Assembly: GCF_900110815.1 (NCBI RefSeq)
Contig: NZ_FOIT01000001.1
Span: 479,910 to 543,909, forward strand
Direction: 5' to 3'
DNA from: Aliicoccus persicus
Lineage (GTDB): Bacteria > Bacillota > Bacilli > Staphylococcales > Salinicoccaceae
DNA length: 64,000 nt
Below the pieces are notes generated by a model, which had not been told where the DNA came from, did not search any database, and saw nothing but the letters and a program-made list of their open reading frames with translations. Of the stretch, positions 5,722-50,834 are shown one piece after another (the first letter of the stretch is position 1; each line of letters starts with the position of its first letter). Position numbers and translations under genes: made by a program.

Positions 5722-5915
5722 TGTTCCACAGAGGCAATTTTTAGTTCGTGAGGAACAGTCGACGACAACCCAAAGTGTTCCACAGCACCATGTTTTTACC
5801 TCATGAGGAACAATAAACGATCAATAGTGTTCCACAGCACCATGTTTTCACCTCGTGAGGAACAGTTTACGATCTAAAGTGTTACTCCGAGGAGATAATG
5901 TCATGCTGAGTACCG
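5722..5915 (+). repeat. Palindromic tandem repeat, family A (3 units plus one chimeric unit)
   Basis: Units at 5722-5757, 5776-5812 and 5828-5864, spaced 54 and 52 nt. Each begins TGTTCC, ends GGAACA (6-bp inverted arms) and has a T-tract at unit positions 17/18-21. Spacers of 14-18 nt are partly similar (GACGA/AACGA/TACGA cores). A fourth unit at 5880-5915, in phase, starts like family A (TGTTA) but ends like family B (GAGTACCG). The array fills the space between nfeD and rpsU together with families B and C. No protein-coding potential is evident. Confidence 0.85.
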
Positions 5916-5930
5916 CTATCGATACTTTAG

Positions 5931-6107
5931 TGGGACTCCCATGGTGAAAACGGTGTGCTGAGTACCACTATAGATAGTTTAGTGGGACTTCCATTGTGAA
6001 AACGATGGGCTGAGTACCGCTATGGATAGTTTAGTGGGACTCCCATTGTGAAAACGATGGGCTGAGTACCGCTATGGATAGTTTAGTGGGACTCCCATGG
6101 TGAAAAC
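5931..6107 (-). repeat. Palindromic tandem repeat, family B (3 full units plus one half unit)
   Basis: Units at 5931-5967, 5983-6019 and 6035-6071, period 52 nt, nearly identical. Arms on the plus strand are TGGGACTC / GAGTACC(A or G), with an inner CCCAT/ATGGG pair in two units. The central A4 tract is at positions 17-20, which on the minus strand is T4 at 18-21, so family B is the shared template in reverse orientation. A final half unit (6087-6107) stops in the centre where family C begins. The 15-nt spacers are conserved (GCTATGGATAGTTTA type). Confidence 0.85.
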
Positions 6108-6296
6108 TGTGCGGCATCTCAAGATTTTCCGACTTGACGCACACTTTCACTGTCTAACTGTGCGGCAGCTCAAGATTTTCCGACTTGATGCACACTATCG
6201 GTCTCTAACTGTGCGGCAACTCAAGATTTTCCGACTTGACGCACACTTTCAGTCTCTAACTGTGCGGCACCTCAAGATTTCCACACCTGACGCACA
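6108..6296 (+). repeat. Palindromic tandem repeat, family C (4 units)
   Basis: Units at 6108-6143, 6159-6194, 6210-6245 and 6261-6296, period exactly 51 nt. Arms TGTGCG / CGCACA (one unit TGCACA), an inner TCAAG/CTTGA pair, and T4 at positions 18-21. The last unit is diverged in its right half. Spacers are 15 nt and similar. Because 51 is divisible by three, one frame stays open across the array, but the translation is just a 17-residue repeat and is not a credible gene. Confidence 0.85.
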
Positions 6297-44963: not shown

Positions 44964-45101
44964 TGCCAATTCACTACGAGTTTCGAGCTTGAATTGGCAG
45001 GGAAATCAAAATAATGCCAATTCAAGTCAATTTTTGATCTCGAATTGGCACGAAAAAGAAAAAGCTGCCAATTCAAGTCATTTTATCGGTCTGAATTGGC
45101 A
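44964..45101 (+). repeat. Palindromic tandem repeat, family D (3 units)
   Basis: Units at 44964-44999, 45015-45050 and 45066-45101, period exactly 51 nt. Each has 9-bp inverted arms TGCCAATTC/GAATTGGCA, perfect in all three units, with variable interiors and a T-tract around positions 17-21. The 15-nt spacers are A-rich and differ more than in the other families. It lies in the convergent gap after rarA and runs directly, in near-perfect phase, into family E. Confidence 0.87.
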
Positions 45102-45117
45102 GGAGATACTTTGATCG

Positions 45118-45306
45118 TGCTCACTCACACTACTTTTCGAGTTCGAGTAAGCATGAAATCATAAACCGTGCTCACTCACACCACTTTTCGTGATCGAGTA
45201 AGCATGAAATCATAAACCGTGCTCACTCACACCACTTTTCGAGTTCGAGTAAGCATGAAATCATAAACCGTGCTCACTCACACTACTTTTTGAGTTCGAG
45301 TAAGCA
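45118..45306 (+). repeat. Palindromic tandem repeat, family E, plus orientation (4 units)
   Basis: Units at 45118-45153, 45169-45204, 45220-45255 and 45271-45306, period 51 nt. Arms TGCTCACTC / GAGTAAGCA pair with one C-A mismatch, and the central T4 is at 17-20. The 15-nt spacer TGAAATCATAAACCG is almost invariant. The same family occurs in reverse orientation at 50646-50834, where the right-arm variant GAGTGAGCA gives a compensating G-U pair. Confidence 0.87.
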
Positions 45307-46370: not shown

Positions 46371-46611
46371 CACAAAAAGAAAATAAGTACCGAATAAAAT
46401 TCGATACTTATTTATAATAGATATCCGAGAATAGCCGTGTGCAGTTGCCGATTAATTTGGCCTGCTATTTGCAGGTGGGTATTCTGTTTCTTGATCCGAA
46501 CGTCCTACCGAAATAGGCGTGTTCATAACAAGAAAACTACTGAATTCCCGATTTAAAAGGTGTTAGGTCAAAATATAATCAGCGCATCACGAACCGCTCA
46601 GACATCTTATT
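46371..46611 (-). ncRNA. ssrS: 6S RNA (ssrS/bsrA)
   Basis: Regulatory RNA that mimics an open promoter and sequesters housekeeping RNA polymerase. Evidence: the 313-bp gap next to tcdA is the place of bsrA in Bacillus; an extended -10 TGTTATAAT (46625-46618) predicts a start near 46611; the two ends pair in an 11-bp helix with two G-U pairs (46607-46597 with 46429-46419); and a 14-bp terminator stem with one mismatch (46412-46382) and a T-rich tail follows. The mature end is probably near 46417. The internal fold was not computed. Confidence 0.85.
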
Positions 46612-50645: not shown

Positions 50646-50834
50646 TGCTTACTAAGACTAGAAAAGTGTGGTGAGTGAGCACGGTTTCTGTTTTTGTGCT
50701 TACTCAGACTAGAAAAGTGTGGTGAGTGAGCACGGTTTCTGTTTTTGTGCTTACTCAGACTAGAAAAGTGTGGTGAGTGAGCACGGTTTCTGTTTTCGTG
50801 CTGACCCAGACTCGAAAATCGTTGTTAGTGAGCA
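50646..50834 (-). repeat. Palindromic tandem repeat, family E, reverse orientation (4 units)
   Basis: Units at 50646-50681, 50697-50732, 50748-50783 and 50799-50834, period exactly 51 nt. Plus-strand arms are TGCTTACT(C or A) / GAGTGAGCA with central A4 at 16-19, so on the minus strand the T4 is at 18-21 and the sequence matches family E of the 45-kb locus. Units 1-3 are almost identical; unit 4 is diverged. It lies between the YwaF-like gene and dsbA, both on the minus strand. The flanks 50522-50645 and 50835-50890 hold nothing I can name. Confidence 0.87.

Follow-up and report, generated by a model that had tools for sequence, protein, structure and literature searches.

The tandem repeats in the analysed stretch of Aliicoccus persicus DNA (64,000 nucleotides, referred to as the window) are probably binding-site satellites of chromosomal NERD-domain nucleases, a reading to which, judging from comparative sequence analysis, we assign a probability of roughly 0.7. 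The linkage of NERD genes to arrays and the specificity of the half-sites were shown by comparison of loci across genomes, and from these two findings we infer binding of the repeats by the protein. Among the candidate functions listed in a preliminary description of the window, protein-binding sites and a copy-number-variable selfish repeat agree with this reading; its proposal that a folded structure is recognised is not supported.

Arrays in the window and unit geometry

When the units were re-derived, the five arm families described previously were recovered on one TG...CA template of 36 to 37 nt with a central T-tract, amounting to about 23 units in the window:

5722..5864, plus strand: sub-array A, three units (5722-5757, 5776-5812, 5828-5864), half-site TGTTCC[A/T]CA
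5880..6110, T-tract on the minus strand: sub-array B, three units (5931-5967, 5983-6019, 6035-6071) and a partial unit (6087-6110), half-site TGG[G/T]ACTC
5880-5914, minus strand: degenerate A/B hybrid unit heading sub-array B
6108..6296, plus strand: sub-array C, four units, half-site TGTGCG[G/T]CA
44964..45101, plus strand: sub-array D, three units, half-site TGCCAATTC
45118..45306, plus strand: sub-array E, four units, half-site TGCT[C/T]ACTC
50646..50834, T-tract on the minus strand: sub-array E reversed, four units

Individual units measure either 36 or 37 nt. The period of 51 to 52 nt was borne out in the window, with a single gap of 54, and TTT starts at positions 16 to 20. The arm families had been called unrelated; their arms do differ, but several have a common core sequence and families are mixed in arrays of one register, so that they are not wholly unrelated. 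At sub-array B, orientation switches within a single register. Rfam gave no match at the window arrays. A 6S RNA gene (Rfam RF00013, 88 bits) is located at window positions 46418-46607 on the minus strand, approximately 1.1 kb from the array at 44964-45306. A CRISPR array was ruled out, the 15-nt spacers being near-identical inside arrays rather than unique.

A unit caller based on geometry only, using no arm sequence, returned 399 units, distributed over 78 arrays in three genera, versus 14 chance units in 839 kb of the reversed-sequence control. In these 399 units, arm pairing covers exactly 9 bp (positions 1 to 9 with 28 to 36), the core between the arms is 18 nt long, TTT occupies positions 18 to 20 in at least 93%, and the centres of successive units are mostly 51.0 apart. 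The conserved geometry with free arm sequence that was noted for the window holds across genera too, and the T-tract and TG/CA frame, on whose retention elsewhere the preliminary description had staked its template, is kept at other loci of the genome and in two further genera.

The earlier explanation of this geometry, i.e., a hairpin or cruciform that is recognised as folded DNA while selection keeps the arms complementary, fits the arm match over exactly 9 bp across families. However, no covariation of variable arm positions was detected within families (A, C, and those of genera g2 and g3), where matched and mismatched forms are found as independent half-sites would predict; at position 7 of family C, 17 of 56 were paired versus 25 expected. 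Position 5 of family E is a partial exception to the independence of the two arms, mostly because sub-families are pooled there. Furthermore, T-tract orientation is mixed in 7 of the 78 arrays, the T-strand shows no bias relative to flanking gene direction (16 against, 13 with), the 18-nt core would have to form the loop, and arm sequence corresponds to the specificity domain of the linked protein (see below). On these grounds the hairpin claim was abandoned, and recognition of folded DNA is considered extremely unlikely. An element acting at the RNA level, with transcribed arrays forming hairpins that serve as regulatory or sponge RNAs, is very unlikely: while 52-nt repeats of B. coagulans were detected by RNA-seq (PMC8625621) and the arms are inverted, the T-strand is random with respect to flanking genes and flips within arrays, the variable arm positions lack covariation, and the arms follow the winged helix of the protein. 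Since the arms vary independently and orientation flips with no strand bias, they are interpreted as duplex half-sites, not as a stem; judged by this variation, they behave like a pair of 9-bp half-sites, inverted relative to each other, for a putative DNA-binding protein.

NERD genes and their arrays

A search for a co-occurring protein family, as proposed earlier, was successful: comparison of flanking genes gave one family common to three genera, the NERD proteins. These proteins of approximately 300 residues combine a NERD nuclease domain of the PD-(D/E)XK type with a zinc ribbon (CxxC..CxxC) and, at the C-terminus, a winged helix. At least 491 NERD relatives were confirmed. The HMM of the NERD domain (PF08378) scored 38.9 and 39.4 bits against a gathering cut-off of 22.1, and in the NERD alignment D83, E96, K98, and Q125 are invariant, as are the zinc residues. 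The AlphaFold model has a pLDDT of 92.6, and Foldseek matched it to nuclease folds. Strong homologues are present in genera g1 to g3, while g4 to g6 have distant ones only. Most strong members are followed 3′ by tandem repeats, with different arms each time. In the own genome (G000), the two strongest members both adjoin arrays: the gene at C7:277839-278708 lies between two E arrays, which carry the arms of window sub-array E on both of its sides, and the gene at C3:70002-70871 adjoins a C array, the arms of which are those of window sub-array C. For the arms of sub-array A, a linked nuclease gene is absent from this genome, and A runs are shorter. Broken NERD genes at L148, L086, and L082 (four stops, one stop, and an ORF split in two, respectively) still adjoin arrays.

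The nuclease-fold likeness found by Foldseek includes Card1/Can2 and McrC, as might be expected if the arrays held or guided the nuclease against invading DNA by self-marking or titration. Against such a defence-type role, which we regard as unlikely, no convincing PADLOC model match was obtained (a single weak one, E 3e-4), defence partner genes were not present, and carriage was not seen on the plasmids and phages searched.

Linkage was assessed at loci chosen by the NERD protein profile alone from 350 genomes of the class. A tandem repeat (≤160 nt 3′) was present at 26 of 29 protein-chosen loci, compared with 8 of 154 random genes (p 2e-21), and a 48-55-bp array lies 3′ of 68 of the 76 named Bacillales NERD genes; 5′ of the gene, an array was seen in only 4 of 80 cases. 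The array is the sole constant neighbour, as a search for a constant partner gene near NERD found no family exceeding 7 of 80 loci. Among 107 NERD-linked arrays, the period is 52 in 72 and 51 in 27. The period tracks the protein tree, other NERD subfamilies having arrays of 41-42, 62-63, or 103 bp; arrays of 62-63 or 103 bp lie 3′ of such genes at L186, L187, L188, and L189. In the own genome, a 41-bp repeat class occurs beside 51-bp arrays and a second NERD subfamily (L005 1080-1467, L014 960-1237, L152 2914-3498, and L153 2944-3404 and 4617-4880). No detectable array was present at the NERD genes of L131, L136, L139, L154, and L156-158, and for the TGCATTAGT family, which follows the 36/15 template in the zapA-pheT region of G003 and G006 (L276, L277), no cognate NERD is known.

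The design search suggested for the template was run with TG, TTT, and CA in two successive units at the set distance, leaving the arm sequence unspecified. It returned 125 matches in the own 2.06-Mb genome and, with arms differing from those of the own genome (TGAGCAAGG, TGAGACAGA, TGCTCATTC, and TGACACGAA), numerous matches in genera g2 and g3; backward controls were near zero. In g4 to g6 and the rest of the order, matches stayed at background level, and BLAST of the window array against relatives matched the own genome alone. Copy number spans one array to dozens per genome; the array count of the own genome comes from sampled stretches rather than the whole genome, and unit counts at its loci L003, L015, and L019 are lower bounds because runs of N lie inside these arrays.

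Arrays sit at gene 3′ ends and avoid promoters. Specifically, array-bearing intergenic regions are convergent in 32, tandem in 30, and divergent in 2 cases, versus 25, 125, and 62 among array-free ones (p 7e-10 for the excess of convergent ends). This placement, together with the retention of the zapA-pheT array over several species, speaks for an architecture that serves the host, in which NERD binds the arrays and selection keeps them at transcription-unit ends as sites for chromosome organisation, repair guidance, or supercoiling; Subirana and Messeguer raised the idea in a general form, and it has an analogy in REP/BIME elements. However, 3′ placement is also expected from tolerance alone, the catalytic residues are invariant, arms and families are replaced rapidly, copy number varies widely as given above, close genera lack arrays, and some NERD genes are broken. 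Overall, a host-serving role appears possible but rather doubtful.

Half-site specificity and array turnover

Comparison of linked loci showed that half-site sequence is tied more closely to the C-terminal domain than to the nuclease domain: the partial Mantel correlation with the C-terminal domain given the N-terminus is r 0.45 (p 0.0005), whereas that with the N-terminus given the C-terminus is r 0.18 (p 0.018). Consistent with this, NERD pairs with N-terminal and C-terminal identities of 91% and 49% or of 82% and 44% differ in their arms, while a pair with 93% and 93% has the same arms. In Bacillaceae, the motif xQW in the wing goes with half-sites ending in CAT (34 of 38 loci) and xRW with AG (14 of 17 loci), although on the poorly resolved protein tree this Gln/Arg switch has only two fully supported independent pairs and is concordant in nearly all random pairings. 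The predicted structure places the Gln/Arg motif in the wing of the winged helix, after the zinc ribbon and nuclease fold.

Arrays also appear to change in step with the linked protein. In genus g2, the intergenic region between zapA and pheT holds a TGAGCARGG, TGAGACAGA, or GGTGATAWGT array, which matches the species' own NERD-linked array in all six species that have both; the site carries no array in G004. Units with GGTGATAAG arms are isolated in two species and number approximately 10 in the species whose NERD gene is linked to GGTGATAAG arms. Within the own genome, families with NERD-linked arms (C and E) have longer runs than A, B, D, and F (3.6 versus 1.9, p 1.6e-4), and these runs are more uniform (0.78 versus 0.64, p 1.6e-4). 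The amplification step proposed below draws on one orthologous site plus these run lengths.

According to the binding-site reading, the winged helix would recognise 9- to 10-bp half-sites, paired in inverted orientation about the T-rich core, and the period of 51 to 52 bp would be set by the placement of neighbouring protein units on the DNA. The NERD domain may nick or cut cognate units, upon which misaligned or copy-type repair would expand them and convert arrays; units left over from an earlier specificity would shrink and drift. Cutting and repair-driven amplification would best fit the invariant catalytic residues and the rewriting of arrays in place. The presumed outcome is a self-spreading sequence population bound to one gene and tolerated in 3′ intergenic regions. 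In the own genome, the two NERD proteins would correspond to sub-arrays C and E, with A, B, and D as likely relics of earlier specificities.

Relation to published repeats

The preliminary description knew of no named element with this design. However, 52-nt tandem repeats of Bacillus and other Firmicutes, constant in size, variable in sequence, and unexplained in function, were already published by Subirana and Messeguer (2020, 2021), who saw no sign of a Cas-like protein at work on these repeats and named no protein partner (PMC8161180). The present arrays share with those repeats a size of 51 to 53 nt that stays constant as the sequence varies, several families per genome, species-specific sequences, and a short motif together with its reverse within one repeat, and they belong to these 52-nt satellites of Firmicutes. 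What the published description lacks and the present one contains is a protein partner, the half-site logic, the T-tract template, and the gene linkage. In H. coagulans 36D1, the NERD-linked array (L251 4517-5240) equals, compared by eye, the consensus of the published family 2_52_35, which has approximately 125 dispersed units in this genome with its single NERD gene; a second NERD gene, for families 1_52_139 and 8_52_18, was not found. In the literature searched, no paper joins "nuclease-related domain" with "tandem repeat".

Among known systems, RAYT-REPIN pairs (PMC3116915) likewise feature a chromosomal enzyme gene beside its own repeat family, repeats dispersed between genes, several gene-repeat pairs per genome, and co-evolution of enzyme and repeat. 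They differ in that the enzyme is an HUH Y1 transposase there and a nuclease-zinc ribbon-winged helix protein here, and in that the present repeats form tandem arrays with a period of 51 to 52 bp and duplex half-sites. The proposed nuclease-driven amplification may parallel that of RAYT-REPIN pairs, the enzyme being unrelated. A Y1/RAYT transposase as partner was rejected, PF01797 having no match in the own genome. With homing endonucleases the arrays have in common that the gene of a predicted sequence-specific nuclease is linked to the nuclease's target and that spread by repair is plausible; unlike them, the NERD gene ends before an intact array rather than interrupting its target, no intron or intein is involved, and the targets are multi-copy tandem arrays. 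Centromeres of the sopC type on the F plasmid consist of tandem repeats of approximately 43 bp, each containing an inverted repeat to which a dimeric HTH protein binds. There, a plasmid has a single site; here, the arrays are chromosomal and number in the dozens, and the protein has a nuclease domain.

Tentatively, and at slightly less than even odds, the arrays and their genes may constitute a new genetic element, a nuclease-driven satellite in which a NERD protein, its winged helix being exchangeable, would rewrite and expand arrays genome-wide to its own specificity, the arrays changing together with protein recognition. NERD proteins are a first candidate partner for bacterial satellites of constant size, which previously had no explanation, and a possible role emerges for a NERD subfamily to which no function had been assigned. 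The roughly one hundred proteins that have linked sites, with their readable Gln/Arg pattern, provide a natural set for protein-DNA specificity, and the system would offer a bacterial parallel to the co-evolution of satellites and proteins at eukaryotic centromeres.
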